The notes under the pieces are model-generated. The model worked only from the letters and a program-made list of their open reading frames with translations. It did not search any database and was not told the origin of the DNA. From Cephalotus follicularis (taxonomy: Eukaryota > Streptophyta > Magnoliopsida > Oxalidales > Cephalotaceae), in assembly GCA_001972305.1 (NCBI GenBank), contig BDDD01000308.1:248001-312000 (forward strand): DNA of 64,000 nt, given 5' to 3'. The stretch's first letter is position 1. Each line of letters begins with the position of its first letter. Below, piece by piece: positions 1 through 33,502 of this stretch. The position numbers and the translations under genes are program-made.

Positions 1-5
1 CTATT

Positions 6-3189: not shown

Positions 3190-3224
3190 TTATTTATAGC
3201 CTTTCATGTTGAATATAGCCGTTT
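3190..3224 (-). promoter_or_regulatory. candidate promoter of the hAT transposase
   Basis: Reading the minus strand, ACGGCTATATT (about 3223-3211) is followed by GGCTATAAATA (about 3201-3191), a good plant TATA box about 175 bp before the first ATG at 3019. Upstream of it lies the CGTTGACG array. The same order and almost the same bases occur in the SIRE-like LTRs at 22981 and 32418. Confidence 0.45.
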
Positions 3225-3329
3225 GAATCATCTTCTAGCCATTGGAATCATTTTACAAAAGTTTTGGATTTTCCAAGAATGAAATCTGCACTAAAAACTA
3301 GTCGTTATTTTTTACTGTTTGATTTGACG

Positions 3330-3606
3330 TCGACGCTTACGTATAGTGTTGACGTCTATGACTTTGTGCGTTAACTCCAATGGTTCTTCACGTTGACTCC
3401 ATTAGCTGCTTTCTGATTTTTGATTCATTCCCGTTACGCCTATGAATAGCGTTGACGTGAATGTCATTTGTGTTGACTCCATTAGCTGCTTTATGATTTT
3501 TAATTCATTCTCGTTGACACGAATGTCATTTGTGTTGACTCCATTTGCCTTATGCGTTAACGTCCAAAGCTACTGTCAGATTTTTGCACCTTTGGCGTTG
3601 ACGTCT
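3330..3606 (-). repeat. right array of CGTTGACG motifs, inverted to the left array
   Basis: At least ten copies of CGTTGACG/CGTCGACG/GTTGACTCC lie here, including two repeats of about 75 bp (3444-3520 and 3515-3550 share GAATGTCATTTGTGTTGACT). Positions 3555-3606 mirror 358-410. The array ends against the first recognisable Copia gag sequence at about 3613, so the transposon end and the Copia truncation point coincide. Confidence 0.55.
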
Positions 3607-3616
3607 TAATATTGGT

Positions 3617-6600
3617 GTGGATGTCTTCATAATCTTGGATCACCTAAAAAGTGGCCTACCAACTGATTACATTGCTAAGGAATTGATTACTGCAATCAGT
3701 GAGAGGTATCGTGTTTCATCGAATACTGATATAGGGTCTCTGTTGCAAGTACTCTTCAACATGAAGTATGATGGTAATGGAGGGGTAAGGGACTATATTA
3801 TTCGTATGGTGGACTATCAGACCAAGCTGAAGGCACTTAAAGTTGATCTTCCGGATACTTGCATTATGCACCATGCCTTGAACACTCTTCCTCCTGAATT
3901 TAGTATCATCAAGACCAATTACAACTCTCAAGATGAATCATGGTCTATCAATGATTTGATTTCTAGGGTCGTTGCTGAGGAGGAAAAGCTAAAGAAGGAG
4001 AAAGGTCAAGCTGCTTTATACGTTGCTGGTTCTAATTCTCATAAAGGTAAGAAGTCCAAAACTTATACTAATAAAGTTGCTCGTGGAACCATTAAGGAAC
4101 CTGGTCAGTCTAGTAATTGGGTCCAAATAAAGTTTCTTTTAAGAAAAATGGTGACCACTGCTTCTTTTGTAAGAAGAAAGGTCACATGAAGAAGGATTGT
4201 CTAAAGTACAAAGCTTGGTTGGCCAAACGTGAGAATACATGTAACGATTCTTTGGCTCTAGTTTGTGAATCCAATCTATCTGAAGCCCCATCTAGTTCAT
4301 GGTGGCTGGATAGCGGTGTAATTAACCATGTTGCTTTTACCATACAGGGGTTCATAAATCGGAGGAAGCCAAATAAGGATGAGTCGAAGCTCACAGTTAG
4401 AAACAATAAAGATGTAGACGTAGAGTTCGTGGGAGATGTCAATTTAGTTTTAGATTCTGGTTTTAAATTGATGTTAAGAAATACTCTTTATGTACCGTCC
4501 TTTAGACGGAATTTATTTTTTGTTTCATTGTTAGACAATCTTGGCTTTGAATTTGAAATAAAGAACTCTACGGTTAATCTCTTTTTCAATTCAAATATGG
4601 TTGGCCATTGCACATTGTCTCATGGACTATATAGAGTGTGTTTGACTCCCAATGATATCTATGTCTGCTATAATGTTAATAACATTGCATCTAAAAGACC
4701 CTTATCTAAGGAACAATATTTCATGTTATGGCATAAAAGGCTCGGCCATATCTCTAGGGAAAGAGTGGAGAGGCCGATAAAGTCTGACATCTTGCCTACT
4801 CTTAATTTCGGTGACCTAGAGACATGTATAGATTGCTGTAGGGGCAAAATGACCAAGATAATGAAAAAAATGGTAATCCATAGTACTGATGTATTAGAAG
4901 TGATTCATACGGACATCAGTGGACCATATTCAGCCACATTATGTAGAAATTTTTATTTCATTACGTTCATTGATGACTATTCCCGATATGGTTATTTGTT
5001 CTTGATTAAGGAAATGTCTCAAACTCTTGAGAAATTCAAGATCTTTCAGACTGAAATTGAGAAACAGTTGGGAAAAGTCATAAAGGTGGTTAGATCTGAC
5101 AGGGGTGGTGAGTATTATAGCAGAGATGGGGATGCTGGACAGCTTAAAGGCCCATTTTCCAAATACTTGGAGGATTATGGGATAGTTGCTCAATTTACTA
5201 TGCCTGGAAGTCCTGAGCAAAATGGAGTCGCTGAAAGGCGTAACCGCACTCTTATGGACATGATGAGAAGTATGATTAGTAGGACGAACTTACCTGAGTT
5301 TCTTTGGGGTGAAGCATTGAAAACAGACCTTTATATTCTAAACATAGTTCCAAGTAAAGCCGTTGCACTTACTCCTTTCGAGTTATGGACTGGACGTAAA
5401 CCTAGTCTTAATCATCTTAGAGTTTGGGGTTGTCCTGCAAAGGTGAAATTGTATACTCCAAACTTGAATAAGCTGGATTCGAGGTCTGTTCATTGTTTCT
5501 TTGTTGGTTATCCAGATCATTCGAAGGGATACCGTTTCTATAACCCATACGGAGGCACTAGAATTGTGGAGTCACAGACAGCGAAATTTTTAGAGTTCAA
5601 TGTAGCCGAACTGGGTGATTGTTCTAAAATGATTGAAGATAGTAGAGATCAAATGGCGACTGTATCTTTTTCTTTACCTACCAAGATGAATGTTGAATCT
5701 ATTACACATTCAGTTGCACCTGTTGAGGTTGAGGCACCTGTTGTTGATACCGTACCTACAGATGTTATTCAGACACAAGATGTAGTAGCAGAGGTTCCAG
5801 TCAGGAGATCGACTTGTGAGAGAAGATCGGTGATACCTCATTGCTATGAGATCTACTTGGGAGAAAGTGATTATGATATCGGTTGTGTAATCGACCCATT
5901 GACTTATTTGAATGCTGTTGCTAGTACTCAATCATATTCGTGGACAGATACAATAAAAGATGAGATGCAGTCAATGTGACATAATGGCGTTCGGGAACTT
6001 GTTGAATTGTCCGAAGGCTGCAAACCTATTGGTTGTAAATGAGTTTATAAGACTAAAAGGGATTCCGAAGGGAAGGTTTAAAGCCAAACTGGTAGCCAAG
6101 GGATTTACACAGAGAGAGGGAATAGACTATAATGAAACTTTCTCTCCCGTCTCTTCGAAGGACTCTCTCAGGGCAATTATGGCATTAGTAGCTCATTTTG
6201 ATTTGGAGTTACACCAGATGGATGTAAAGACTGCATTCCTAAACGGTAATCTTGATGAGGAGATCTATATGGTGCAGCCTAAAGGTTTTGCAGTTGAAGG
6301 TGGTAGTCATCTTGTTTGTAGACTCAAGAAGTCTATGTATAGTCTCAAACAAGCTTCGAGACAGTGGTATTTTAGATTTAATGCTGTTGTGACTTCTTTT
6401 GGTTTTAAATAAAATCTGATGGATCAGTGTATATATCACAAGGTCAGTGGGAGTAAATTCTTTATTCTTGTGCTCTATGTGGATGATATCTTGTTAGCAA
6501 GAAATGATCTAGGCATGCTACATACCACCAAACAGACGTTGTCTAGTGAGTTTGACATGAAGGACCTTGGCGATGCTTCTTTTGTTCTTGGGATTCAGAT

Positions 6601-7468
6601 TCATAGAGATCGTTCTCGCTATCTATTGAGTTTATCTCAAAGGGCTTATATTGATAGGGTTTTGGAGAGATTCAGTATGCTGGATTGCAAACCAGGGAAT
6701 GTTCATGTTCTCAAAGGTGATAAGTTGAATTTGTTACAGTGTCCTAATAATGAAGTTGAAAGGGAAGCTATGAAGAAAGTGCCTTATGCTAGTACAATTG
6801 GGATCATTATGTATGCTCAAGTATGTACTAGGCCGGATATTGCTTTTACAGTAGGACTTCTTGGCAGATATCAATCTAATCCTGGTCATGATCATTGGGT
6901 GGCTGCTAAGAAGCTTTTACGGTACTTGAAAGGAACAAGAGATTTTATGCTTACTTATAGATGGGTTGATGATCTATAATTAGTGGGTTTTACAGATTCT
7001 AACTTTGCTGGCTGTCAGGATGACAAAAATTCCACATCAGGTTATGTTTTTATGATGGCAGGTGGGGCAGTGTCTTGTAAAAGTGCAAAGCAAACGTTGA
7101 TTACTTCTTTGACCATGCAAGTAGAGTTTGTAGCGTGCTATGGAGCAGCTACGCAGGCAGTTTGGTTCAGGAATTTTATGAGGACATTCACTGTTGTTGA
7201 TTTTGTGTCTAGACCTATCCGATTGTACTGTGATAACAGCTCTGCTGTACTATTTATTAATAATAATAAAAGTATCACAGGGTCTAAACACATAGAGATA
7301 AAGTACTTGACCATCAAGGAAAAGGTTAAGAATGGTGAAGTTACAGTAGAGCATATTAGTACAGATGATATGGTTCCTGATCCTTTGACTAAAAGCCTTC
7401 GTCTTTGTGTTTTTGAGAGACATGTACCTAGCATGGGCTTGGTTGCATCATGGGATGCGCTTGTTTAG
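3617..7468 (+). pseudogene. Copia gag-pol polyprotein remnant
   Basis: The gag part (3617-4189) carries the Copia UBN2-type capsid region. A frameshift near 4120-4150 leads to a CCHC zinc knuckle ([14 protein letters not shown]), a protease D-S-G (WWLDSG), the pre-integrase segment (LWHKRLGH), an integrase core with the D-D-E pattern ([23 protein letters not shown]), then reverse transcriptase (QMDVKTAFLNG and YVDDILL) and RNase H (TDSNFAGC, LYCDNSSAV). Stops or shifts at about 5979, 6410 and 6979 break the reading frame into four long pieces. The long open stretches mean it decayed relatively recently compared with the second Copia element. It is placed in Copia by domain order; lineage is probably Tork-like, as an inference. 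Confidence 0.88.
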
Positions 7469-8165
7469 TGGGAGTCAGTTATTTATTTTGCTCTATTTTT
7501 TGTTTTCATATGTACTGTTTTATCTTTTGATACTATATCGGATTATATTGACTATGTCTTTTGCAATCAATTGAGTTGAATAAATTCAGTTTTTATTTCG
7601 AGTACTTTGTTTAAACACATTGGTGTTTTACATGTTGGCATGTCATATATATATATATATAATTGTTTAAAGTCTTGAGATATGTGTCAATCTTGAGCAA
7701 AGGCCGGGGCATTCAGTTGTTGGCCTTAAAGGTATGTCTTATGACACATAAATATTTTCACGTGAAATAAAGTTAAAAACATACAGGTTCATTGGAACCA
7801 TATAGATTTTCTCTAGTGTGCCTGTGCCACTTAAGGAGAGAAAATTGGTGACCGACGATGAATAACACATAAAGAACTATTGGTGCTATCAAATCGTCAC
7901 ACTACCATATTAAATCCATGGTAGTAGTGCTAAAGACTTTTGTAACCATTGAAGGTCCTGTATCACTTAAAAGATGCAGTTATCGCCATGATTCGGAATT
8001 GAGGTTCTATGGGACGGGATTGACTATTGGAACAGTCTCTAGACCGATAATTTTTTTATGCGCGCAAAACTTTGAAACTTAGTTGGCCTGTGTAATTGTT
8101 TTTATAAAATAAATATATCTATTTATTATTATTATTTAACAATTAATATAGCCCAAGTGGGAGAA

Positions 8166-8655
8166 TGTAAGAATATTTTCTTATGTGGGCTTATATTAAT
8201 TGGGTATTTATTATTAAATAAAACCAGGCTGACTATTGGTCTAATAAAGTGGGACATACATATTCTAAATAGTCGTATATAGACTGGCTAGTGTGGGGTG
8301 TAGTAAACTAATTGGACTTTTGATGAGATGGCCCATTAGGTTACTAATAAGGATTATATAAATAGCTAGGTCTCCTCTCTTAACCCTAATAATCTTGACA
8401 TAAGAGAAAAATACACATACAGCAGAAAAAGAGATAGGCGGCTATCTTCTTGTGTATTACGGTGCCTCATCGAGCCAGTGTTCTAGGGAATTAAGAGAGT
8501 TGTACCTTGCTACTAAGGATCACTATAGATTTCTGCTGCTTATCATGGATCTTAAACAATGTACGATTTCTATCATTATTATTTAGGTGTTTCTCTTCTA
8601 TCTAAGACGATCCTAGGGATTAAGAAATTGATCAGGTATACAATTTTATCTTACA
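8166..8655 (+). repeat. 3' LTR of the truncated Copia
   Basis: The LTR starts TGTAAG and ends CTTACA, a perfect 6-bp terminal inverted repeat, and is 490 bp long. A purine-rich stretch (AAGTGGGAGAA) directly precedes it, as expected of the polypurine tract. A TATA-like ATTATATAAATAG occurs near 8352. The partner LTR is absent from the window. Confidence 0.8.
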
Positions 8656-9417
8656 ATTAATTCATAAGTTAATTTATAATTTCAACTTAAGATTATAACC
8701 AAATGGCTTGGGTGACTATAATTGTGCTAACAGCTGCAATTTCAAATCTGCACCCACCGTAATGTGCTTCAGAGGATACTAGCAGCACATGTGTTGGACC
8801 GACAAGTTGGCAATTAGCCTTCTTCCTAAGCGGACTGGGGTTCATAATTATTGGAGCTGGTGGCATCCGGCCATGTAACCTAGCCTGTGGGGCTGACCAA
8901 TTCAATCCAGCAACCGAATCCGGCCAGCTGGGTATCAATAGCTTCTTCAATTGGTACTATTTCACCTTGGCAGTTACTGTGTTGATATCTGGAACCTTCA
9001 TTGTCTACGTGCAATCGAACGTGAACTGGGCTATTGGGTTTGCAATTACTACATGTCTGATGTTCCTATCATGTATATTTTTCTTATCGGGTACAAGAAT
9101 TTATGTCAAAGTGAAACCTGAGGGGAGCCCCTTATCCAGTGTGGCACAAGCATTGGTAGCTGCCACAAGGAAAAGGCAACTAAAGCTACCTGACAGCCCA
9201 GAACTTTGCCTCTTCAAGTATGTGGCATCCAAGTCCACCAACTCCAAGCTTCCTTACACATATCAATTTAGGTGAGAGGCATGTACTTAGTTCACTTAAA
9301 AACTATGGTTTCTAATTCCAAAAAGTGAATTATTTGTGCACACATAAACATATAGTAACATATTGGAGTAGCTGTATGCAACATCAAGATGACCTAATTA
9401 ATTATATTTATACCATG

Positions 9418-9548
9418 AGTTATCGTTAGTATTTAATTACAAATTAAGCTTAGATAAGAGGCTCGCATCCATGTAATAAACCTATATATATGTCTTTCCT
9501 ATTTAGCATAATACAATCAATTTTTGAGTTTCACTAATCTATTCAACA
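9418..9548 (+). repeat. 5' LTR of the intronic Copia
   Basis: This is the 131-bp partner of the LTR at 15514. It ends ATTCAACA just before the PBS. The terminal T of TG is mutated to A, but the TSD CCATG at 9413-9417 fixes the boundary. Confidence 0.9.
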
Positions 9549-10265
9549 TGGTATCAGAGCGAATGATTACTATTAGGGTTTTCTATATATAAAAAAAACC
9601 TAACCTTAGCGCCGCACTACCGCGTAGCCCTAGCGCCGCACTGTCGCATCGTCCTCTTCTCTAAAACGGAAACAGTAAACACAGAAGACTTAACCCTAGC
9701 GACGCACTGCCGCGTAACCCTAGAGCCGCACTGCCGCGTCGTCCTCTTCTCTGGCGCGATCGTCTTCTCAGCGCCGTATTCTCAGCGCCGATCATCTTCT
9801 CTGGCGCAATCGTCTTCTCTGCTACGATCATCTTCTCAGTGCTGATCGTCTTCTCTGGCACGAACGTCTTCTCAGTGCCGATCTCAACCTCCGATTGCTT
9901 CTGTTTGGCGCCGATATCTGCTTCGGTAATGTCCTCTTTGTTTTGTCTCTGTTTGGGGCAAATATCTTCTGTTCAGTGTTGATGTATTATGCCGTGAACC
10001 TTTTCGGCACGGCTGTGCTTTGTGGGTGGTGTTCTTGAATGTTGGTATACCGGTGGTAGTTTGGCTACGATTGTGACAGTATTGTACTTCTAATTAGTAT
10101 GGTTAATATGGCTGATGGGATATGTGCATGTTGTATTGTGACTGTATGGTATGAAGTTGTATGTTGGTGTGGCCTGATCTACCGTGTGTGTTGTGTCTTG
10201 ATTGTGTGGTGTGGTAGTTCCCTGGTTTATGTACTTTGTCAAGTGATTTGTCACTGTGAGCGAAT

Positions 10266-15479: not shown

Positions 15480-15513
15480 CTATATGATATGTATGTCCCA
15501 ACTTAAGGGGGAG

Positions 15514-15644
15514 TGTTATCATTAGTATTTACTTATAAGTTGGGCTTAGCTAAGAGGCCCACATCCATTTAATAAGCCTATATATATGGCTTTCCTGTTT
15601 AGCATAATACAATCAATTTTTGAGTTTCACTAATCTATTCAACA
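15514..15644 (+). repeat. 3' LTR of the intronic Copia
   Basis: This LTR starts TGTTATCATTAG after the tract AAGGGGGAG and ends TTCAACA, followed by the TSD CCATG at 15645-15649. It is 131 bp, equal to the left LTR. Confidence 0.92.
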
Positions 15645-18779: not shown

Positions 18780-18985
18780 TGGGTAAGTGTCAACGCATGG
18801 CATGACACTAAACACAGTAACTCTATCATGTAAGATTTTAAATAAAACGTTTTGTCTGGTTGGCATTGACGCCTTCATACATTTCAGCGCCACAGGACCA
18901 CGCGTTTTAAAACCAAACATTTCATTGGAAGGACGTCGATGCTTTGCAGTATCAAAAGAGATAGCGTCGACGCCTTCGGGCAACG
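18780..18985. repeat. scattered CGTCGACGC motifs within copy a
   Basis: GTGTCAACGC, ATTGACGCC, GACGTCGATGC and GCGTCGACGCC occur within about 200 bp. The corresponding part of copy b (20700-21100) is GC-rich but lacks the same motif spacing, so this stretch may be a later addition. Confidence 0.45.
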
Positions 18986-19294: not shown

Positions 19295-19298
<4 letters not shown>

Positions 19299-19325
<27 letters not shown>

Positions 19326-19772: not shown

Positions 19773-19817
<45 letters not shown>

Positions 19818-19870
19818 GAAGAAGATAAAGAAATATGTGAAGGTGGCCACTATTTTAAACTGAATAATGG

Positions 19871-19909
<39 letters not shown>
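19299..19909 (+). repeat. three GA microsatellite tracts
   Basis: GA dinucleotide runs occur at about 19299-19323, 19777-19816 and 19873-19909 in copy a. They correspond to the CT-rich leader just inside the start of the other LTR copies (near 20640, 36980 and 61630). ORFs reading through them are low-complexity artefacts. Confidence 0.85.
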
Positions 19910-19926
19910 CTAGGTATTACATGCCT

Positions 19927-20353: not shown

Positions 20354-23094
20354 CCAAGTGTAATACCTCGTTTTCCCTTACGAAATTTTTGGACCTTTTT
20401 GATCTGTTTTGTGTGGGCTGTCGATTTATTTTGGTATGTGGCTGTCCATTTTTGGTTTGTTTTGCTCTTGGCTGGGTTAAGTGAGCTTTAGCTTTAGCCT
20501 AGTGGGTTTTGATAGCAAGAGTATGTATAAATAAACCTATTATGGCTTTTATTTAAGTGTTAAAAACCCAATTTCAACCTTAAAAAAAACCCCTATTTTT
20601 ATATTCTTTTCTATCTCTCTCTCATCTCTCCCATTTTCTCTCTTTCCCCGGTATTCTCTTTCTCTCCCTGTCTCTGCCGCCAGCGTCACTACCGATATGA
20701 CGACGGCGAAGGTATCGGCGTGACCGCCACGACCTCATGAGCACACTGGACCCTACCCTATCTCCGACAAACGGCCCCCCATGGGTGCGCGGCGTCTTCT
20801 CTCTCCCCGCCTCTCTTTTGCGTCGAACCTCTGTCTCCGGTGATAGTCATGACAAGGCAAGCTCAGATTCGGCATCCTAGGGTCAAGGCTATTCAAACGC
20901 GATCAGCCCCGACCCATGACGACGTCAGCAACGCGAGATCAACGGAGATGACAGTCTAGTCAAATGCATTTGTTCCTGCCAAATGCAGTGGCGCCGTGGT
21001 AAACGGGCCCCGGAAATGTGACCCTTGACCTTTGGCGCTCCAGATCCGACCTCCCTTGAGGATGAAGGGCCACCGCCCGTGGCCGCCATGCGCCAACCAG
21101 CGGCGACGCGTGAGCCCACGCGCCGGCAGCCTCCGATAAAGTGTTTTAGACACGTCTAGCATTCTGACTTCGTTTTCTGCGTAGGCATGATCCGTTCCAA
21201 TTCCGCTGCGTGATTCTGGTTATGTACTCCGTTCTGTCTGCTTTCGGTAAACCCTGAACTCTGTTCCATTAAATTATGTTTTCTGTTGAATTCTGTATTT
21301 CTATATATGTTTATGTGATATAATAAGCTGAACTTGTTTTATGATTCGAAATTTAATAACCTGGACGACCACTTGAACTTACTTTAATAAATTCAAAATT
21401 ATGTTTAAATGAGGCTTCTGCAACTTGGAATTTTGTCAAGAATGTCTCTATGGGTATATTACGTTGACTTAAGAATGTGTATCTCTAACCTAATACATGT
21501 TTGCATAATTCGGTGTCCGACTCCCTGTGGCCCTAATCATAAATCCCCAGTCATCAATCAGGTGATCTTGCATTCTAGGGAAGATCAAGAAATAGTGTAC
21601 CAGGATTATATCATTAAGGAATCATCAGACTGCAAATTGGACTTATCAAACATGTCATTATCTTATATGGTCATGATCAGTGTACAGTGACCCATGAGTC
21701 GAGGTCTGATTTTATTTCAAGTCCTTATAAGAACGATTTTATTTCTTTTAGATAATTTGAACAACCGAGATACGGTCTAAGGATTTATCGATCTACTCTC
21801 GAGGTTATTTTGGTGATTGCATAAGGTACGGATTTTTCGTTCTTGGATATCTCCTTTGATTTTATTTGAATAAATTCAGTCTTATTTTTATATGTAAAAT
21901 ACAGATTCTTCATCTTTGATTACCTCCCTTTGATTTTATTGGAACAAATTCAGTTTTATCCGTAGAAATAAAGTACGGATTTTTCGTTCTTGGATATCCC
22001 CTATTGATTTTATTAGAGTAAAAATCAAATTTTACGTTTATGAACAAAATATGAATTTGATTTACTGTCATCTCTTTTCGAACTTCTTTGCACGATTAAG
22101 TGAGCATGATTTTGAATATATATGTATGTTTGACTAAGCAAGTATGTAATTGTTATTTGGTAAGCTATTATCGTTTGATATACGATTTTTAAGAAACTTT
22201 TGTTCATATGTGGAAACCCTATATGTTTGAACTGATTTTTGAGAAAATCATTATTTTGAAATCGTTGAATACTGAGAATATAACCACCTATTGGGGTACT
22301 ATAGGCATGTTTTCTGGCACAGAGACATGACACCATCCATAACGGTGTTATCAATCTACGACGTCTCTATTTGATATCCTGTGGAGGATTTGGATCCGAT
22401 TATGATTGTCACCTGAGTGTGATATATTTATGATAAAGGCGTATGGGTCGATCCTAAGATATATGTTATGTATGTTAAGGAATTGATTGTGTAGTGTCGT
22501 ATACGTCATTCCATTAGGCATGTGGATTCTGCAGGATCCCTTGCATATGTATGTACCGGTACGTTATCACCTAATGGTTTGGCACGTATGCGGGATTAGT
22601 TATATGCATCTCTCAATATGAAACACTGGCTAGGAAAAAGTTTAGAATTTGATATGAACAAAAACGTATATCTACTTTATGAAAGTTTGTGAATTTATAT
22701 GTATATGTTTGACATTGAAAGCCTTTTTTTTACTGCCGTTTTTCAGTTTTATAAATTGTGTTGCTTTCATAATTTGTTCGTAAAATATTTTTCTATTCTA
22801 TATCTGTACTGAGGTTTGCTCAGTCGCGTTTTTTCTTTTCCATGCGGCAGGTTATCAGGGGCATCAAGGGTAAGTGTGATGAGTGATCTACCGAATGTCA
22901 GAGGATTAGTTAGCAATTTAAACATTATTATTTCAGTTGATTTTAATCATATGGAGACCTCGAGTTTTAGTTTTGATATGTGTTGGGTTTTGTCTAACAA
23001 TCCTAGTTTTGATGATAACAAAGCACCTAACTTGTTTGTTGATGTAAAGAAATGATTAAATGAAACAAAACAAGAAAGTGAAGAAACAGAACAA

Positions 23095-23430
23095 AGCACC
23101 GACGGTTTGAAAAGAAGCGTCCGCGCTTAACACCAAAGGGTCAATAGTTGAAGACTTTCAAAGCAAGAACAAAACTTCTTAAAGCGCCGACAGTCTCATG
23201 GAAAGCGTCAGCGGTTTGGACCAAGGCGTCAACGCTTAGAGATCACATATCAGAGCTTTATTCCAGAGACTTGTAGAACCAATTAAGGAACTCAAAGCAG
23301 CGACGGCCATAAAGAAAGTGTCAGCGGTTTCTCCAAGGCATCAACGCTTAGAATAAAGCGTCGGCATATTAAGCGAGAAATTAAAATTCATACACATAAC
23401 GGTAACATAAGCGTCGACGCTTTGCGCGTT
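23095..23430 (+). repeat. CGTCAACG/CGTCGACG array in LTR U3
   Basis: About ten degenerate motifs of the GCGTCAACGC/AGCGTCGACGCT kind are spread through the U3 and include the full palindrome AAGCGTCGACGCTT near 23408-23421. The right LTR has the same array at about 32510-32835. Confidence 0.7.
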
Positions 23431-23991
23431 GGAAACTTTCATTAAAGCCGTTTTACAAAGTCGTCTTTACAACAACAACTTCCAAGACAACACCAACGAC
23501 TATATTACTTCCACAACAGCCATAAACTGAAGAGAGCTATAAAAATAGGCCAAGAATCAAGATCAAGAAGTTCTTCAACAACTTAATAAGAGACCTTTAT
23601 CATCTTAGAAGAGAAGAACATCAAGAGAGCAAAGCTTCCACTTACAAATATTTCAAAGCTTGTGTCAAGAACTTTATCACTTTCATATCCAACCTTTGAG
23701 AGGTTATTTTTAAACACAAAACCATCCTTATAATCTTTCATTGTAAAAAGGGGTGTGAACCCTTAGTGAGATCATCAAGGGGAGTGAACCCTTAGTAGGA
23801 TTATCGCGGGGAGTGAACCCGGTGGGGATTGAACCCAAAACTTGTAAGGTGTTTCTTTGATTTGCACCCGTAACCCAAAATCAAAGTGTACTAGAAGGTA
23901 TCTAGTAGAATCTCAAGGAGGTTCTTGGGAAAAGTGGACATAGGCAAGAGTTAGCCGAATCACTATAAACCGTGTTTGCAATCTCTCTAAC

Positions 23992-25533
23992 TGATGCATT
24001 TGCAAGTCCAAGCCTTAGTCCAACATGCTAAAGAATCTCAATTTGCCTCCAAAGTACTTAATGGGCCAATCCAGCATTTTTTGGGCCTAAGGGAAGTTTA
24101 TTCTTTGTTTTATTATTGTATATTTCTTACTTGGGTCAATCCCAATTGTGATCCACCACTCTAAATTCGGCCAAAACCCAAAACCCATTATATTATGCTT
24201 GTTTTAATGCTATTTTGACTAAATTAAAGGGGAAGGAAAGGCCCATACACACCCGCATCAATTGGTATCAGAGAAAGGAAGCTCTTTGTTCTATCAAGAG
24301 CTTGGAGATAAGCTATCATTGCTTAGATTTGGAAGTGAGCTCATTGTTCAACCCGAAATAATCACAACATTCAATTCAAAAAAACAGAACCATGTCGTAT
24401 CGTTCAGGTTCATCTTATCCATCATCCTACCGTTCAAGCTCTTCTTGGGAAGATACCGCTACAATGATAAAAGGAGAGTGGAAAGCACTAAGAAATCAAT
24501 TGGATGAAGGTTTTCTATTTATTTCACAACAAATCCAAAACTTGACGGAGAACCAAAGAAGAGGATCTAGAAATTTTATGGAGAAATGTTTCAAGTGTCA
24601 AGGTTATAGACACTCACTATATGAATGTCCTGATGAAAAGTTAATTACTTGTGAAGACATTGAAGAGATAAAGGCTGCCTCTATAGAAGACTCTCTTGAA
24701 GCCCCTCTAGTTGAAGTTCTTGCAGAAGATAGTTCTCGTGATGAAGATATCCTTATTGCTGATCCTATAGAAGGAGAGCTCTTAGAGTTGCCTCCAATTT
24801 TGGCTATTGATGATAAAGATCTTGATGATCAAGATGAAAGTATTGATGATCAAAAAGAAGAGACTTGTGAGAAATTTAATGAACCTAATAAAAGGACTGA
24901 TGAAAGCATGATTGAAATTTCATCAAACTCGATGAATTTCTTATCAAAACAACCACAACTTATTGAGTTTGTTATACCAGAAAAGTTAAATCAATCACAT
25001 GGAGATGACTTTTTGTTAAAGGTGTTGCTGATTCAATTCAAAACTTCAAAGTTGTCTTTCATGATAAGCACAAAGTTGGTGTTCCCAAACAATGCAAGTT
25101 TACTACTTCAAATTTACAAAACTCGAGGTCGAGTTTTCTCTAACAAAGGGAGTTTGATGCATTTGCAAGTCCAAGCCTTAGTCCAACATGCTAAAGAATC
25201 TCAATTTGCCTCTAAAGTACTTAATGGGCCAATTCAGCATTTTTTGGGCGTAAGGGAAGTTTATTCTTTGTTTTATTATTGTATATTACTTACTTGGGTC
25301 AAGCCCAATTGTGATCCACCACTCTAAATTCGGCCAAAACCCAAAACCCATTATATTATGCTTGTTTTAATGCTATTTTGACTAAATTAAAGGGGAAGGA
25401 GACCCTTTTAAAACCCAAATCAGTCCTAAACACCTTCCAAATCAAACCCACACTATCCCTGAACTTGAACCAACCTTAAAAACTATCCCTAAAGCCAATA
25501 GCTCACTTAAAAGGCTCATACACACCCGCATCA
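23992..25533 (+). mobile_element. small gag-only LTR element (TR-GAG type)
   Basis: LTRs lie at 23992-24260 (269 bp) and 25155-25533 (379 bp). Both start TGATGC and end GCATCA, and CTAAC flanks the element on each side (23987-23991 and 25534-25538). TGGTATCAGAG follows the left LTR (24263) and a purine tract (ACAAAGGGAGTT) precedes the right one. The length difference is one indel of about 110 bp near the LTR ends; otherwise the LTRs differ at only a handful of bases. The internal region is about 0.9 kb with a single gag-like ORF. This structure matches the described terminal-repeat-with-GAG non-autonomous class. Confidence 0.9.
24392..25327 (+). CDS. gag-like protein with one zinc knuckle
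   Basis: The 311-residue frame opens with a Ser-rich segment, then a basic helix-forming stretch (about residues 24-60), then a CCHC knuckle CFKCQGYRHSLYEC (about 69-82), then a long acidic tail rich in Asp and Glu (about 90-185). The last 60 residues are read from the right LTR, so the natural protein probably ends near the LTR or uses LTR sequence as its C-terminus. There is no capsid motif I can name and no protease or polymerase. It would be expected to bind RNA and help packaging of its own element if translated. The ATG choice is uncertain because an overlapping frame starts at 24262. The open frame over the whole internal region suggests either recent insertion or constraint. Confidence 0.6.
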   Translation: MSYRSGSSYPSSYRSSSSWEDTATMIKGEWKALRNQLDEGFLFISQQIQNLTENQRRGSRNFMEKCFKCQGYRHSLYECPDEKLITCEDIEEIKAASIEDSLEAPLVEVLAEDSSRDEDILIADPIEGELLELPPILAIDDKDLDDQDESIDDQKEETCEKFNEPNKRTDESMIEISSNSMNFLSKQPQLIEFVIPEKLNQSHGDDFLLKVLLIQFKTSKLSFMISTKLVFPNNASLLLQIYKTRGRVFSNKGSLMHLQVQALVQHAKESQFASKVLNGPIQHFLGVREVYSLFYYCILLTWVKPNCDPPL

Positions 25534-25853
25534 CTAACTCTATCTCTCTTTATTTACATTGTTTTATTATTCTTGTGTACATGTTTATATTCATAATTTA
25601 ATTCGTCTTTTTCGCAAACCATTTATAATATAAAGGTTTCTATATAGGACTTTCAGTTGGTATCAGAGCGATAGATTCATTATTCTTAATTGTTAGAATC
25701 TTAAAGATCCATGGAAACTTCTATGAATCTAAACGTAGGATTGGAAGGTTCTTCCGTATCTAGACTGCCACGCCCCAAACCGCGAGGGTAAACCCCCATG
25801 ACTCGACGTGTGAGATACCATCTATTCCATCAAACCATATCATATATCATATA

Positions 25854-26880
25854 TCTACCAAGAACGTCGACGTCTATAGCCCCCTGGGCATTTTCTGCAT
25901 TTCTATAAATGCTGAAAACAATGGTTTAGAGTATGGTATATCATTCTGGCATTCCAAAATGCACTATGCATGTTCCAAACATAATTCTAAACACATTAAA
26001 ACAACATTCCCAGCACAAAAACACAATGAAATCCAATTTCATGCAATTTTTCATTAAGGCACTTTGAAATTTTAGTTTGATCACAAAACACATCCATTAA
26101 TTAAACCATTAATCAGTACATCATCTAAGGCATACATATTCAATTAAGGATGATGTGGGACGCTCTGATACCACTGATGGAAACGGACAAAACCGAATCC
26201 AATGCCATAAATGGACAATGGTGCAAAGGGTGTAAAACAAAACAAAACATACAATCATGGCAGCGGAATAACACCCTATTAAAACAAAACAAGTCCATTA
26301 TGACACGTCCACAGATCACATGGATCACCACAACATCTACTGAATTGAATTGGTGTCACCATTACAAACAATGGTGACACACAAGCATGGCAAAAGGAAG
26401 AAGGACCAAGAATTATACCAACGGGTGAAGGATCCTTCTTTGTTTGCCGCTACAAGCTTGAGTAGATTCCCTTTGATGTTCTCCAAGTCTCAGGAACAAC
26501 AAGCAATCCAACCAGAAAAGATAAAGTGTGTGAACTCTCTCTCTCTCACTTAGCTTAGAAAAGGTATATTGATATTGACCAATGAAGTCAATGATCAATC
26601 CACCCTAGATAAGCTCATGCTTGGTGTATCACAGATGAAGAGAACACACTGCAGAGAAAAATTTGAGCTCTCTTGCCCAGCAAAACTCAAACTTTTTCCC
26701 TTTTTCACTTAGTTCATTTTCTGCAGAAAATGCCTATTACTAGCCTCCTTTTCTCTCTCCCAATCTCCCATTCAATTAGGATCATGGCCTTCACTCCCTG
26801 GGAGTCCGAAGCCATGATTCCCACGTTTCTCAAACGTGCAAGAACAGGAGGTGGAAGCTGGATATGAGAGAAAAATCGTG
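25854..26880 (-). repeat. 1.03-kb direct repeat, copy 1
   Basis: This unit recurs at 28004-29030 with a constant offset of 2150 bp and only scattered differences. On the minus strand it reads as R-U5 of an LTR ending TTTCCATCA, one base, then the PBS TGGTATCAGAGC (26173-26162), then about 300 bp of leader. The flank at 26881 and beyond does not match that of copy 2. Confidence 0.8.
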
Positions 26881-27783
26881 CCACGTAGGCGTGTCCAAGT
26901 GCTAAAACATAGCCACCCTTTGCGGTGCCCAACACCGACGTTGACATAATATCCCCAAGTCATCAGCCTCAGTTAGGGCATGACAAACCAACAACCCAGG
27001 AACACTACTCAACGAAAATTGTGGAAGGCCACGGGGAACCACTCCATGGGTTCCTACGTTGAGACTTATTATTGCAGTGAGGGAATTTGCGGTCTCATGT
27101 GTTAATTACCGAGCCATTAATTAATTCATTGGTTTTATTAGCCAATTCCAATTAATTACGGCTTAGCATGCAAGACGAGTATCTTATGCACCTTGGACAT
27201 ATTTCTAAAATATGTCAATGGATTTGGAAAGGACAATATTAGTAATGACTTGAGTCCAAAGTCACTACTAGGTCTTCCTAGGTGTAAAGATTTAAATCTA
27301 TTTATTACATCAATAACCATGCATCTATGGCCTTCAAAAGTCTTGTACTCCATTTCTCCTTTCCTCCATCTCTCCTTGCAAGGTCTTCTTTTACAAAAAG
27401 AACATTACATTTTCGAAAAGAAAAAATTACATTTTAAAAATTACAAGGAGAAATTACAAAAAGAAAGGAAAAATAAATGGTGCACGCAGGCACCTTATTA
27501 CAGACCTTTAAAGATAATAAATAAATAAAATCTATCCACACATAGAAAACAATAAACTAGGTCTATGTCCTTTTTCGGGACATCCATTGTGCATAAGATC
27601 TATATTATATCCAATATAATAATACCACATATAAACAAATGCCATAAATAATAACCAATAACTCAATTTAATTCAAAGATTGTTAATTGATCAAACTCCC
27701 ACTAAATCAAGCAATTATTTTTAATTTTCCAAGTACCAAAATGTATAAAATCCAATTTTATTAAAAACAGTTTTTTTTTTTAG

Positions 27784-28043
27784 AAGACGTCGACGCTTAT
27801 CAAAAGCATCGACGTGTTTTCTGGAAATACTTGAACAAGACGTCGATGCATAACAGGAGCATCAATGCCTTTCTCAAGAACAGTTGAAAAAGGCGTCGAC
27901 GTTCAACAAGAACATCGACGCGTTTCACAAAAAGATGAATAAGACATCGACGTCTATCAAGAACGTCGATGTCTTTACTGGGAATATGAATAAGACATTG
28001 ACGTCTACCAAGAACGTCGACGTCTATAGCCCTCTGGGCATTT
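27784..28043 (+). repeat. five-unit minisatellite with paired CGTCGACG motifs
   Basis: Units start at about 27784, 27837, 27890, 27941 and 27992, a period of 51-53 bp. Each begins AAGACGTCGACG (or a one-base variant) and holds a second motif GCATCGACG about 20 bp later. The last half-unit is also present next to copy 1 of the 1.03-kb repeat, so the minisatellite adjoins the Copia leader. Confidence 0.85.
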
Positions 28044-29030
28044 TCTGCATTTCTAAAAATGCTGAAAATAATAGTTTAGAGTATGGTATACCATTCTGGC
28101 ATTCCAAAATGCACTATGCATGTTCCAAACATAATTCTAAACACATTAAAACAACATTCCCAGCACAAAAACACAATGAAATCCAATTTCATGCAATTTT
28201 TCATTAAGGCACTTTGAAAATTTAGTTTGATCACAAAACACATCCATTAATTAAACCATTAATCAGTACATCATCTAAGGCATACATATTCAATTAAGGA
28301 TGATGTGGGACGCTCTGATACCACTGATGGAAACGGACAAAACCGAATCCAATGCCATAAATGGACAAAGGTGCAAAGGGTGTAAAACAAAACAAAACAT
28401 ACAATCATGGCAGCGGAATAACACCCTATTAAAACAAAACAAGTCCATTATGACACGTCCACAGATCACATGGATCACCACAACATCTACTGAATTGAAT
28501 TGGTGTCACCATTACAAACAATGGTGACACACAAGCATGGCAAAAGGAAGAAGGACCAAGAATTATACCAGCGGGTGAAGGCTCCTTCTTTGTTTGCCGC
28601 TACAAGCTTGAGTAGATTCCCTTTGATGTTCTCCAAGTCTCAGGAACAACAAGCAATCCAACCAGCAAAGATAAAGTGTATGAACTCTCTCTCTCTCACT
28701 TAGCTTAGAAAAGGTATATTGATATTGACCAATGAAGTCAATGATCAATCCACCCTAGATAAGCTCTTGCTTGGTGTATCACAGATGAAGAGAACACACT
28801 GCAGAGAAGAATTCGAGCTCTCTTGCCTAGCAAAACTCAAACCTTTTCCCTTTTTCACTTAGTTCATTTTCTGCAGAAAATGCCTATTACTAGCCTCCTT
28901 TTCACTCTCCCAATCTCCCATTCAATTAGGATCATGGCCTTCACTCCCTGGGAGTCCGAAGCCATGATTCCCACGTTTCTCAAACGTGCAAGAACAGGAG
29001 GTGGAAGCTGGATATGAGAGAAAAATCGTG
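28004..29030 (-). repeat. 1.03-kb direct repeat, copy 2
   Basis: This is the partner of 25854-26880. It carries the same PBS complement at 28312-28323. Beyond 29030 the sequence turns into a CGTCGACG-rich stretch rather than the sequence seen after copy 1. Confidence 0.8.
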
Positions 29031-29069
29031 TCCACGAAGTGAGCTCGTGCACAGGTTACACGTGTTCTG

Positions 29070-29215
29070 CTCAAAGTCGTCGACGCCTTTTCAAAAGACA
29101 TCGACGTCCATGTAATGTGGCACTAAAAACATCGATGCTTTCTAAAAGACATCGACGCCTTTCAAAATGTTCAGCATCGACGTCTTTCTAAAAGACATCG
29201 ACGCTTTGTCTGGCC
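29070..29215 (+). repeat. CGTCGACG-type motif array
   Basis: Seven motifs of the forms CGTCGACGCC, CATCGACGTC and CATCGATGC lie in about 145 bp, separated by CTTT/AAAAG. They sit where the U3 of copy 2 would be on the minus strand. Confidence 0.7.
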
Positions 29216-32200
29216 AGTAAAGCATTAAGAGTCTAACTCTTATAGTAATCTCATGTACCCTTCGAATATTGGTTAAGTAAGATCAGACATATGTGTTTCC
29301 ACAAAATGCAAAATCCACATAACCGATATTTGACACAAAAACTTAATATGTTCAACATATTAAAGATCTAATCATTATAAGGCAGGGACCCTTTAAAATC
29401 TTGGTTAAAACGAGAGGTGTTCAAAAATTACCGAAATACCCCCTGGGTCCGGTTTAGCCATTCTAAATTATCCCAGACCATTTAAATGCTCTCGGAATAA
29501 TATCTAATATTATCCAGATGAAAAAATTAATCTAATTAATTTTTCTATAATTTATTACTCACCTCATTAACCCTAGATTTTCTAAGTCGTCGGTTCAGTA
29601 AGGAGTAAGGTAACCAGTCTCACAGCCTCCATGCCAGGTATCCAACCTTATGTCAGGGCATCACTAGTATAAGTAGGTAATAAATAAACTACTTCAATTA
29701 TGTGATAAAATACAAGTGATATAGCCATCACAAATTTTTAGCACGTATCATACATAAGGAATAAGATTGTTTCATACATGGTAAGATATAATATGACAAC
29801 CCATCTAATGGCTTGTCGGGTCACTATATCTAACAGGAGGTCCTGGGCTGCTCGCCATTCTCTCCCGGTCTGGTGGCTGGCTCCGGCGTCGTCTCCGGTG
29901 CTCTCTCTCCCTCTGCCATGTAATCTCTCCCGCACTCTCTCTCCCTCGCGTATATTTCTTTCTTTTTTGGCACGGGCGCATTATGCACTCATGTCTCTTT
30001 CTTTCTCTTTTATTGATTGCTCCCCTTCTTGTCTTTAACAGCAAAATGTTAATGCTTGGATCTCGTTTATTCCGCGCATTGCAATATTAATTAATCCAAC
30101 CACCACTAAAATAATCGCAATAATATTGCGAACATAGGGTCTTACGGTCGCGCATTAAAAATGTGCTTTATTGGTCATTTTGAGCCTTATAATTGCGGGC
30201 TTCAGTACGCAATATCTGTTATTGCCTCGGGCTTCCATTGGGCTTCATTATAGCTATACGATGTGCCAAATATTACCACAATTATTTATACAATTATTGT
30301 TATAAAATTTGGGGCATTACATAGACCCCCATTCTTTGACGGAAATAACTATAGTTTTGGAAAAACTAGAATGGCCATATTTTTACAATCCTTAGACTAT
30401 CAATTGTGGCATATTATTGTTAATGGTCCTAGGATTTCCACGAGAACGGTAGAGAGAGTAGTTTCTTTAAAACCCGAAAATGAATTTAACGATAATGATT
30501 TTAGAATGCTTCAATTAAATTCAAAGTCTAAACATGTTTTATTTTATGTCGTAGGTCCAAATAAATTTAATTGCATTACTTCATGTAATTCGGCTAAAGA
30601 AATGTGAGACTTATTAGAAGTTTCATATGAAGGCACTAACCAAGTAAAGAAATAAAAAATAAGCATGCTTGTACACGAATATGAATTGTTTATGATGCAT
30701 GACAATGAAAATATTAGTGATATGTTTTCTCGCTTTACTACGATTATTAATTCTCTTAAAAATCTTGGCATTTCTTATCCTAACCAAGAACTTGTAAGAA
30801 AAATCTTAAGGTGTTTACCAAAAAGCTGGACTTCAAAGGTAACGGCGATTGAGGAAGCAAAGGACCTCACGACTCTTCCACTCGAGCAGCTCCTTGGTTC
30901 CTTGATGACACATGAGACGACAATGAAAAATCATGAGAGTGTGGAAACCAAAAAGAAGAAGACTATTGCTTTAAGAGCCTCGAAGGAAGAAAGTGAAAGT
31001 GATGAAGATGAAGATTTGGCCCTTATCACATCTCAATTTAAAAAGTTCCTCACAAGTCAAAAAGGTAAAAAGGCTTTCAAGAAGTACCCGTAAAAAGAAG
31101 AATAATCAAATAAAGAGGAACTAACATGCTTCAAATGCAAAAAGACTGGTCACTTTAAAAGTGATTGCCCGAGTCTTAAAAAGAAAGAGCAATTCAAGAA
31201 AAGTAATGAGCATTCCAAGAAGAAGAAAGCTATGGTTGCTACATAGAGTGATAGTGACTGCTCGAGCTTCGAAGAAGAAAGTGATAAAGAGGTAGCCGAC
31301 ATTGCTTTCATGGCAATTGAGGAGGAGGAAGAAGAAGAGGTAAATTTTTCTTTTGATGAATTGCAAGATGCTTATGATAATTTATTTCATGAATATAAAA
31401 ATGTTTGTTTGAAGAATAAATTTCTCAAGAAAAATGCTATTTCAATGTCAAAAGAAATTGAAAATCTAAAGAATGTGAATAGCAACTATATATATGAGAT
31501 TGAAATTTTAAATGTTTCTTTGAAATTGACAAATGATTTTAAGGATGAAAATGAAAATTTGAAACTAGAAATTGATGCTTTGAAGACAACTTTTTCTAAG
31601 TTTTCAAATAGTAGTGATAAATTGGATAATCTTTTAGGATTACAAAGATGTGTGTTTGACAAAGCCGGTCTAGGCTATGAAGAAATGAATAATGTCAAAC
31701 ACTTTAATAACTTCTTTGTTAAGAAAAATGAGCTCAAAATTATTTGTAACTATTGTCGTAGACTAGGACATATTTCTACCTCGTGCTTTCTTAAAAAGAA
31801 ATTAGGCCTTGTTAAATTTAGAAGAATTTGAGTTCCCAAAGGAACCTTTGTAACTAACTTGTAAGGACCCAAGTTCACCTAAATACCAAAAGCTTAAACT
31901 TTGTTTTTGTAGGTGTACTTGAAGTTAAAATCAAATTCAAGTACATTTGTTGGGGAGAAAGCATTTTGTTGAGGGGGAGGTAATGATATGAAGAAATACT
32001 CTCATTGAATTAATTTTTAACTTTCAATTGGAATACTTACAATTAGTATCTTTTAAATTGTCAATTCGGTATCAATATTGTTTAACATATTCTTTTTTAT
32101 GCTCACAAAAAGAGGGAGAAAGTTTATGAGAAATTGATAGCTTATGTTAAGGGGGAGCTATAAAAAGGATAACTTGAAATCATGTTTTTATGGACTTTTC

Positions 32201-32417
32201 AAAAAGGGGAAGATATTTATGTTTGGAGATATTTTATGAATTTGAAATTAATCTTATGGGGAGAATTAGACGTTAAGTTAAGAGGGAGCTTAACTAAGGG
32301 GGAGTTTGTCATTTTTTTTAAGTTGTTTTGAATTGTGTTAAATTTCTTCAATTAATATTATCTTTATTTTATATGATCTTATTGTAAATGTTTTGTAATC
32401 ATCAAAAAGAGGGTGAT

Positions 32418-33502
32418 TGTTGGGTTTTGTCTAACAATCTTAGTTTTGATGATAACAAAGCACCTAACTTGTTTGTTGATGTAAAGAAATGATTAAACGA
32501 AACAAAACAAGGACGGTTTGAACAGAAGTGTTTGCGCTTAACACCAAAGCGTCAACAGTTGAAGACTTTCAAAGCTAGAACAAAACTATTTAAAGCGCCG
32601 ACGGTCTCATGGAAAACGTCAGTGGTTTGGACCAAGGTGTCAATGCTTAAAGAGCACATATCAGAGCTTCATTCTAGAGACTTGTAGAACCAATTGAGGA
32701 ACTCAAAGCGGCGACGGTCATAAAGAAAGCGTCAACGGTTTCTCCAAGGCGTCAACACTTAGAACAAAGCGTCGGCGGATTAAGCGAGAAATTCAAATTC
32801 ATACACATAACGGTAACATAAGCGTCGACGCTTTGTGCGCTGGAAACTTTCATTAAAGCCGTCTTTACAACAACAACTTCTAAGACAACACCAACGGCTA
32901 TATTACTTCTACAATGGCCATAAACTGAAGAGAGCTATAAAAAGAGGCCAAGAATCAGGATCAAGAAGTTCTTCAACAACTTAAAAAGAGACCTTCATCA
33001 TCTTAGAAGAGAAGAACATCAAGAGAGCAAAGCTTCCACTTTCAAATATTTCAAAGCTTGTGTCAAATACTTTATCACTTTCATATCCAACCTTTGAGAG
33101 GTTATTTGTAAACACAAAACCATCCTTATAATATTTCATTGTAAAAAAAGGGTGTGAACCCTTAGTGAGATAATCAAGGGGAGTGAACCCTTAGTAGGAT
33201 TATCGCGGGGAGTGAACCCAGTGGGGAGGGAACCCAAAACTTGTAAGGTGTTTCTTTGATTTACATCCGTAATCCAAAATCAAAGTGTACTAGAAGGTAT
33301 GGAATCTCAAGGAGGTCCTTGGGAAACGTGGACGTAGGTAAGAGTTAGTCAAACCACTATAAACTGTGTTTGCAATCTCTCTAACTCTATCTCTCTTTAT
33401 TTACATTGTTTTATTATTCTTGTGTGCTTGTTTATATTCATAGTTTAATTTGTCTTTTCCGTAAACCATTTATTATATAAAGGTAGCCATATAGGACTTT
33501 CA
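32418..33502 (+). repeat. 3' LTR of the SIRE-like element
   Basis: This 1085-bp LTR starts TGTTGGG and ends GGACTTTCA. It includes the CGTCAACG array (about 32510-32835), ACGGCTATATT (32894) and a TATA box in GAGCTATAAAAAGAGG (about 32931). It is the uninterrupted reference for locating the insertion in the left LTR. Confidence 0.88.

Follow-up and report, generated by a model that had tools for sequence, protein, structure and literature searches.

Pairs of a phased 16-bp near-palindrome, WWRRCGTCRACGYYWW, number in the tens of thousands in the genome of Cephalotus follicularis and lie in repeats ranging from a hAT DNA transposon to Copia-type LTRs. Judged from sequence, the arrays of this site are probably (roughly 0.6) places where one dimeric, sequence-specific nuclear factor, common to many transposon families, binds cooperatively. 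We favor this reading because of the 16-bp palindrome itself, its phasing, the promoter-like places in which arrays lie, the repeats that carry them without being alignable, and the conservation of sites in promoters of PF20167 genes.

The window, by which we mean the whole analyzed stretch of 64,000 nucleotides, held 67 near-matches to CGTYRACG (at most one mismatch), compared with a mean of 20.7 and a maximum of 26 in 40 local Markov simulations, and 47 of these sat within clusters. Clusters of at least three matches numbered seven, against a mean of 0.125 in the 40 simulations, and were found at the seven places where the original prediction had put motif arrays. CGTCGACG was the most over-represented 8-mer in the window outside dinucleotide repeats, among 8-mers seen at least five times. 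The observation of arrays holds and extends well past the window; an Rfam search returned zero families at the gathering threshold. The clusters are as follows.

218..561, plus strand: array B, 11 matches, between two convergent hAT genes, an inverted copy of array C
3328..3603, minus strand: array C, 7 matches, upstream of the hAT transposase
18788..18972, no strand given: array of 4 matches in a solo-LTR-like repeat
23206..23419, plus strand: U3 array of the left SIRE-like LTR, 4 matches
27788..28022, no strand given: array of 9 matches in the leader-like part of a second LTR element
29078..29203, no strand given: array of 5 matches on the U3 side of the second LTR element
32550..32830, plus strand: U3 array of the right SIRE-like LTR, 7 matches

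Across 71 distinct genome pairs the unit was sharp-edged, with columns at −4 (W, 96%), −1 (R, 93%), +8 (Y, 92%) and +11 (W, 93%) and a flat profile outside. The W-box core recognized by WRKY factors is TTGACY, while as-1 geometry consists of two TGACG cores 12 bp apart. The arrays had originally been read as a stress-responsive enhancer addressed by WRKY (W-box) or TGA (as-1) factors, in line with which CGTCAACG holds TGACG on the opposite strand and a TGACG/CGTCA core occurred in 48 of the 71 pairs; that core appears where the site center is CA instead of CG. TTGACY, however, occurred in 0/71 pairs, and 23/71 had CGTCGACG on both sides, with neither W-box nor TGACG core. As-1 geometry was also rejected as a candidate in its own right, given sites mostly 19–21 bp apart and the pairs that lack TGACG, and a 16-bp palindrome with this spacing is unlike either site, so we regard the stress-enhancer reading as highly improbable. 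Orientation was consistent within some arrays (L072, L080), whereas others were mixed, and a strict promoter grammar is not supported because of these mixed loci. A TATAWAW box lay within 260 bp of 16 of 34 sampled arrays, a figure that stands without a background estimate and comes from loci picked for matching the pattern.

Distances between sites are integral helical turns, with 2, 3, 4 and 5 turns frequent and 2.5 and 3.5 turns nearly empty. Counting CGTCRACG pairs on the forward strand of the whole genome, with the reversed pattern as control, we obtained 25,896 pairs at 19–21 bp (control 40), 3,286 at 30–32 bp (7) and 8,559 at 51–53 bp (16), and only 536 at 24–26 bp (17) and 214 at 35–37 bp (1), many pairs being non-independent owing to tandem duplication. 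A CpG-matched scrambled form of the palindrome gave 2 pairs at 19–21 bp genome-wide. The genome count of WWRRCGTCRACGYYWW itself was 104,653 (control 215/226), which is to be taken as an order of magnitude only, forward and reverse counts being equal. The original prediction would have been refuted by a motif just as frequent in random DNA of the species; this was not the case, the scrambled and reversed controls being far rarer than CGTCRACG pairs. Spacings in the window were phased too (19–22, 28–32, 41–42 and 51–53 bp), a feature absent from the original prediction. Among the matches listed (100 rows), 74 unique places included 54 at 19–22 bp, 11 at 28–32 bp and 7 at 38–43 bp, with 1 at 23–27 bp, 0 at 33–37 bp and 1 at 13 bp. 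Phasing persisted when distances of 24–130 bp alone were considered (resultant 0.266 vs. a null maximum of 0.195 of 1000; 15 sequence sets). With sites integral helical turns apart, proteins bound to them would all lie on one face of the double helix.

The spacings also bear on the view that a functionless minisatellite of ~20–21 bp was captured by, or copied between, elements through template switching, gene conversion or nested insertion. Short tandem units of 20–21 bp are visible in some arrays, and arrays enlarge via local duplication, as this view would have it. Such a unit, however, predicts distances of 20, 40 and 60 bp, and capture of one common minisatellite, as originally suggested, fails to account for peaks at 30–32 and 51–53 bp beside nearly empty bins at 24–26 and 35–37 bp.

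The hAT element that carries arrays B and C is represented in the window by its right-hand part.

1..3631, minus strand: right-hand part of the hAT element, which starts at window position −1925 with TIR TAGGGTTGCAAG (C308)
997..3024, minus strand: degenerate hAT transposase gene, with Dimer_Tnp_hAT (E 1.5e-13, 997–1116) and hAT-like_RNase-H (E 1.8e-9, 1348–1569)

The full element is 5.8 kb long (5,827 bp in the C308:184981 copy). It is bounded by TIRs and an 8-bp TSD and holds two convergent genes, one for the hAT transposase and one for a PF20167 protein. In the C308:184981 copy the TIRs are TAGGGTTGCAAG.. and ..CCACTTGCAACCCTA, with the TSD AGTTGAAC on both sides. RNase-H and C-terminal dimerization domains, together with short TIRs and the 8-bp TSD (the latter in the C308:184981 copy), place it in the hAT superfamily; a zf-BED match was weak (E 0.15, below the curated cut-off). 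Positions −1905..3631 aligned at 93% to a second copy that has TIRs and the 8-bp TSD AGTTGAAC. In the window copy, hAT sequence breaks off at ~3631 and gives way to a Copia gag; another hAT copy runs on past this point through more array to a TIR. The array originally placed at 200–572 on the left side of the hAT does exist within the element, but is not at its left end; the element starts ~1.9 kb left of the window, so that this array falls between the two convergent genes. The possibility that the hAT arrays are remnants of SIRE LTRs struck by a hAT insertion was ruled out by the alignments to the second hAT copy and by the lack of any array alignment to SIRE at E < 0.01; the arrays belong to the hAT itself.

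Arrays A and C sit inside both hAT ends, and in copy L040 array C extends to ~130 bp from the right TIR. Such positions would suit subterminal binding sites of the hAT transposase, which LTR elements would then carry by accident or via ancestral hAT insertions, and the accessible portion of PMC8097297 describes four hAT-encoded proteins whose binding motifs match their own subterminal regions. We nevertheless consider this account quite unlikely, since array B is internal, arrays precede both genes, and sites in LTR promoters are not required for transposition. Moreover, U3 sites were present in 30/30 SIRE LTR copies, and no SIRE locus had hAT ends, which scanning the examined loci for the TIR pattern revealed only at L039, L040, L095 and L085. 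No relatives of the hAT protein were found in viral contigs.

The best-represented LTR carrier in the window is a SIRE-like Copia element.

22981..23992, plus strand: left LTR of the SIRE-like Copia element
32418..33386, plus strand: right LTR of the SIRE-like Copia element

A Copia gag (PF14223, E 1.1e-18) and a zinc knuckle lie between these ~1-kb LTRs and identify the element as Copia, the name SIRE being taken from the original prediction. Each of the 30 genome copies of the LTR retrieved (of 40 matched) had 4 to 11 matches in or around the U3 array stretch. In the second LTR element, some pairs in 27788..28022 are inverted repeats 19 bp apart, and L075 and L076 are 85–89% copies of the U3-side region at 29078..29203, with arrays. 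L073 matched the solo-LTR-like repeat (94% over 474 bp) and carries an array, and one further array-bearing repeat adjoins the end of a gypsy polyprotein. We arrived at ~11 repeat groups among 42 arrays by hand merging, with a class assigned for a minority of groups. Links of at least 100 bp gave 16 groups and links of 150 bp gave 19, both counting single-source arrays apart, while a threshold of E 1e-6 lumped most arrays through short links; in hand merging, the three hAT arrays became one group, as did the two from the second LTR element, while L073 was put with the solo LTR and L005_1379 with SIRE.

The hAT, SIRE and second-LTR-element arrays had no mutual alignment at E < 0.01, which supports in kind the proposal that a DNA transposon and LTR elements carry the array without shared ancestry. 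A few motif-driven local scores exceeded shuffles (hAT array C vs. SIRE, z 6.0; second element vs. solo LTR, z 6.0), and spacers between motifs differ from family to family. Both the lack of alignment and the varied spacers speak against a copied minisatellite. Conservation within these families points the other way: with copies turned to one strand (19/30 SIRE and 10/23 hAT loci were minus), motif columns scored 0.868 vs. 0.884 elsewhere in SIRE U3 (higher in 7/30 references) and 0.895 vs. 0.927 in hAT array B (higher in 0/23), which counts against the single-factor reading and in favor of a minisatellite. Only CpGs stood out, those inside motifs being more conserved than those outside in 22/30 SIRE and 21/23 hAT array B references.

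The PF20167 gene, the second gene of these hAT elements, is hugely multiplied in the genome. Of ten PF20167 genes picked by domain, 10/10 carried 5–15 matches within 1 kb upstream, six of the ten promoters being close relatives (84–95%), and the arrays surround the TATA box. Array positions are thus promoter-like in LTR U3 regions, upstream of both hAT genes and around this TATA box. Conservation was tested by defining sites on one reference sequence and scoring them in the others; across five divergent PF20167 promoters, sites were 76–92% identical vs. 61–70% elsewhere and CpGs 80–88% vs. 50–68%, a level reached by at most 0.7% of mask shifts for 5/5 references. This conservation also weighs against a functionless minisatellite, which we judge unlikely overall. 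It is also awkward for the idea that CpG-rich arrays are a target of host silencing, through small RNAs or methylation nucleation, and not an activator site. The arrays are CpG-dense repeats, some of them inverted, and tandem repeats can be sources of small RNAs and targets of RdDM, according to the available part of PMC10398659. Elements would nonetheless be expected to lose such sites, whereas PF20167 promoters keep them, CpGs included, and helical phasing is unexpected for a small-RNA target; we therefore hold silencing to be very unlikely.

The original prediction had also proposed a box module shared by hAT and SIRE promoters next to the arrays.

3193..3223, minus strand: GGCTATAAA and AACGGCTATATT boxes in the hAT transposase promoter
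32893..32941, plus strand: AACGGCTATATT and GAGCTATAAA boxes in the right SIRE LTR

AACGGCTATATT is identical over 12 bp between the hAT (3212–3223, minus) and the right SIRE LTR (32893–32904), and to this extent the proposal stands, but the left SIRE LTR has AACGACTATATT, hAT copy L040 has AACAACTATATT at the box position and AACGGCTA at two other places, and the promoter of the other hAT gene has neither box. The exact box ACGGCTATATT occurred in 5/30 oriented SIRE copies and looser forms in more (AAYGRCTATATT in 11/30, AAYGRCYATA in 19/30, GCTATAAA in 10/30), so the box is a common feature of the SIRE family in decayed forms. At L072, a locus with a hAT-like array, AACGGCTATATCC occurs and GCTATAAA comes 21 bp after it. 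Outside the arrays, alignment of the hAT and SIRE promoters did not surpass that of shuffled sequence (p = 0.08 and 0.215). A module common to some hAT and SIRE promoters is possible from these sequences, though weak and not general. As a separate observation, AACGGCTATATT resembles a MYB3R/MSA site. The part of PMC10905365 available gives this site an AACGG core.

Returning to the single dimeric factor, such a protein would bind phased sites cooperatively and, once bound, would raise transcription of the element or prevent its silencing. Lineages gaining or keeping phased sites would be favored, and DNA and LTR transposons may in this way have come to use the same trans-acting factor. Candidates are a host transcription factor, the hAT transposase or a domesticated relative, and the PF20167 protein. 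Tentatively, the last of these might bind the 16-bp palindrome and activate, or protect from silencing, its own promoter, with LTR elements having independently evolved its phased arrays to exploit it; we consider this specific version possible but doubtful. The PF20167 structure model was too poor to use (pLDDT 34), PDB sequence searches gave no credible match (best E 0.7 and 0.17), and in open-licence PMC literature, searched for the motif string, convergent sites in unrelated families and PF20167, a description of the motif was not found among the matches listed.

The closest parallel is VANDAL/VANC in Arabidopsis, where the portions available of PMC5735166 and PMC10398659 describe motif arrays in non-coding parts of a DNA transposon with an accessory protein besides the transposase, arrays that evolve by tandem repeats, and a VANC6 motif that also occurs in AT9TSD1, unrelated to VANDAL and hypomethylated in VANC6 plants. 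This hAT likewise has dense one-motif arrays in non-coding parts and a second gene, but its transposase is a hAT and not a MULE of the VANA kind, and its motif, unlike that of VANDAL, is a helically phased 16-bp palindrome spread over LTR families, with site pairs counted in the tens of thousands. The VANC anti-silencing function may have a counterpart here in the PF20167 protein. Ac carries subterminal transposase-binding repeats. As in Ac and, in the part of PMC8097297 available, hAT-encoded CGGBPs, short GC-containing motifs are repeated inside both hAT ends, whereas our motif also occurs in LTR retrotransposons and before both hAT genes, and is a long, phased palindrome.

Repeated U3 cis-elements drive the LTR retrotransposons ONSEN, Tnt1 and Tto1. 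Those cases concern one family each and known factors, whereas the present motif spans classes and matches no nameable factor. Transcription-factor sites spread by MITEs in plants are similar in that one motif is multiplied genome-wide by transposons, but in the partial accounts available the site is carried by one family, and here arrays occur in several unalignable repeat groups. PF20167 (Transposase_32) appears in the text examined of PMC11728184 as an accessory 3′ ORF of the sunflower Athila gypsy LTR retrotransposon, with predicted nuclear localization. In both cases a transposable element carries it as an additional ORF, in ours as the second gene of a hAT; unlike in that text, which makes no DNA-motif link in the part examined, its promoter here holds motif arrays.

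The common view is that each transposon family relies on a promoter and anti-silencing tricks of its own. Our results suggest one DNA-binding protein common to unrelated transposons, possibly transposon-made. If the PF20167 reading were true, this would be a trans-acting commodity common to DNA and RNA transposons, VANC-like across classes. Helical phasing offers a purely computational handle for finding such shared systems in other genomes. If one factor serves all, mobile-element activity could be switched jointly, and the exploitation of a DNA transposon protein by LTR elements, as parasites of parasites, becomes testable.

Nested transposable elements fill this stretch of plant DNA, and 67 sites in the window match CGTCAACG, CGTTGACG or CGTCGACG with at most one mismatch, compared to a mean of 20.7 and a maximum of 26 in 40 simulations that kept local dinucleotide content. 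Seven clusters of at least three sites were found (0.125 in simulations), at the array coordinates of the original prediction, and CGTCGACG was the top over-represented 8-mer, simple dinucleotide repeats aside. The window also holds part of a gene, apparently broken up by transposable elements:

8700-16491: POT/NRT1-type transporter gene piece (PF00854 at 15898-16491)

Neighbouring gaps of 19-22 bp made up 17 of 40 in the window, vs. 4.0 expected under random placement (0/3000). Genome-wide, we counted pairs of exact CGTCRACG on the forward strand of the 1.577-Gb assembly (9,746 contigs), in which the window is C308:248001-312000, using fixed-pattern matches only.

Genome-wide pairs of CGTCRACG by spacing, with the reversed-pattern control
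19-21 bp: 25,896; control 40
24-26 bp: 536; control 17
30-32 bp: 3,286; control 7
35-37 bp: 214; control 1
51-53 bp: 8,559; control 16
13-43 bp: 40,697; control 113

The reversed pattern has no CpG inside its 8-mers and would thus, if anything, be expected to be commoner in a CpG-poor genome, and the palindrome CGACRTCG, with the same letters and number of CpGs, gave 2 pairs at 19-21 bp. Four-turn spacing occurred at 7 of 74 places among the matches listed. The spacing is thus helically phased, peaking at every whole number of turns from two to five and nearly empty at 2.5 and 3.5 turns, and the phasing holds across 15 sequence sets when distances of 24-130 bp alone are used. A 21-bp tandem repeat does not produce spacings of 31 or 52 bp. 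Among genome-wide pairs, CGTCGACG-CGTCGACG favoured 21 bp (14/23) and CGTCAACG-CGTCAACG favoured 19 bp (12/19).

The site extends beyond the searched 8-mer. In 71 distinct genome pairs from the listed 19-21 bp matches, letters were fixed on the left (A or T at −4, a purine at −1 and usually also at −2) and on the right (pyrimidine at +8 and +9, A/T at +10 and +11), while positions further out showed no clear letter preference. The unit is WWRRCGTCRACGYYWW, 16 bp long, near-palindromic and sharp-edged, as would be expected of a protein footprint. Overlapping W-box and as-1 cores had been proposed for the motif; canonical TTGACY was found in 0 of the 71 pairs, and the TGACG core of as-1, which needs a CA centre, was present in 48 and absent otherwise.

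Pfam confirmed the hAT transposase on the minus strand, with only a weak match for its BED finger. The element begins outside the window, at −1925 (negative coordinates lie left of the window start), and arrays B (200-572) and C (3330-3606) are inverted copies, with a best stretch of 89% over 54 bp. Searching the genome with 150-720 gave at least 43 matches, and 30 loci were fetched, one being the window itself. Nine aligned in a single piece from about −1350 to past 2100, five in a shorter single piece that covers at least −751 to 910, and the remaining 16 in several pieces or over a shorter extent; single-piece alignments across both flanks indicate that array B moves together with the sequence on either side. 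A second copy (C308:184981; 5,827 bp) is bounded by TIRs TAGGGTTGCAAG../..CCACTTGCAACCCTA and flanked on each side by the 8-bp duplication AGTTGAAC, and its right array comes within ~130 bp of the TIR. The window copy diverges from it at ~3631, where a Copia gag starts and the right end of the hAT is missing. The two copies (C308:184981-190807 and −1925 to 3631) lie 61 kb apart, and their left flanks match across the 120 bp compared, which suggests that a single insertion was duplicated along with its surroundings. The hAT carries a second gene, preceded by its own array:

−1713 to −1448: array A, upstream of the second gene
−1477: TATATAA box, upstream of the second gene
−1334 to about −160, plus strand: second hAT gene, Pfam PF20167 (positions 6667-7838 of fetched locus L039, equal to −1334 to −162)

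Its protein matches Transposase_32 (PF20167) in two pieces in the broken window copy (E = 1.3e-11 and 1.1e-5) and at E = 9.2e-28 in an open copy elsewhere in the genome; open copies of ~400 aa are present at loci L018 and L094. The family is very large (the best 150 of 13,073 first-look candidates were scored). Ten genes drawn from the 150 listed, disregarding the motif, all had 5 to 15 sites within 1 kb before the domain, surrounding a TATA box at about −300. Six are close relatives, and the other four are 65-75% alike where aligned.

Arrays also occur in retrotransposons. The SIRE-like element (LTRs at 22981 and 32418) encloses a Copia gag and zinc knuckle; its U3 query gave 40 genome matches, and all 30 fetched copies had 4 to 11 sites, often spaced 20, 21, 41, 53, 71-74 or 92 bp apart. 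At L001, a locus found by motif pattern, a gypsy polyprotein with SH3_Tf2-1 (E = 1.3e-9) and a weakly matched chromo domain (E = 0.0056) ends ~200 bp before the arrays. Thirteen further stretches, chosen from listed pattern matches on contigs C1 and C2, cover, among others, the solo-LTR repeat, the window's second LTR element and distant hAT-like arrays. Arrays are in many cases copies of one another. With motifs masked, the flanks of 42 arrays from 26 sources form 16 groups (links of at least 100 bp), of which 11 remain after hand-merging arrays of one element, the class being known for a minority.

Within the SIRE-like gag, 25761-30324 is an insertion with TAGAC at both flanks (by eye) and ends TGCCACGCCCC and GGGGCATTACA, a solo-LTR-like unit enclosing a second LTR element with two 1-kb direct repeats; of its two LTR copies, just one has the array. 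Some hAT-like and SIRE promoters have AACGGCTATATT or a close form before a TATA-like box; this box resembles the MYB3R MSA site, and AAYGRCYATA occurs in 19 of 30 SIRE copies:

3212-3223, minus strand: AACGGCTATATT-type box
32893-32904, plus strand: AACGGCTATATT-type box
L072:1226 (hAT-like array locus): AACGGCTATATT-type box

Sites are conserved in PF20167 promoters. When five divergent promoters were aligned, with sites defined on one reference and scored in the others, sites were 76-92% identical vs. 61-70% elsewhere, and CpGs 80-88% inside sites vs. 50-68% outside; mask shifts did as well in at most 0.7% of cases for all five references. Motif columns were no better conserved than the rest in SIRE-like U3 (30 oriented rows; 0.868 vs. 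0.884) or hAT array B (23 oriented rows; 0.895 vs. 0.927), so these alignments do not support selection on LTR sites; constraint may be invisible in dead copies of one family. CpGs alone were kept better inside motifs than outside in both SIRE-like U3 (0.880 vs. 0.846) and array B (0.902 vs. 0.861).

Two transposon-derived proteins can be considered as factors. The PF20167 protein is a tentative and rather unlikely candidate, put forward because the same hAT encodes it, its own arrays precede the gene, and PMC11728184 describes a PF20167-like ORF with predicted nuclear localisation in a sunflower Athila element. The domain thus occurs in a hAT here and in that retrotransposon, making it an accessory gene found in both transposon classes. 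The other candidate is a BED-finger protein of hAT origin; according to PMC8097297, BED-finger proteins derived from hATs mostly favour CGG or CGC trinucleotides. VANC offers the closest known parallel: PMC5735166 reports that the VANC6 motif is also present in AT9TSD1, an unrelated element that is hypomethylated in VANC6 plants. The arrays are probably cooperative sites for one dimeric nuclear factor, which would bind them, cooperate between neighbouring sites, activate the elements or counter their silencing, and so serve many transposon families.
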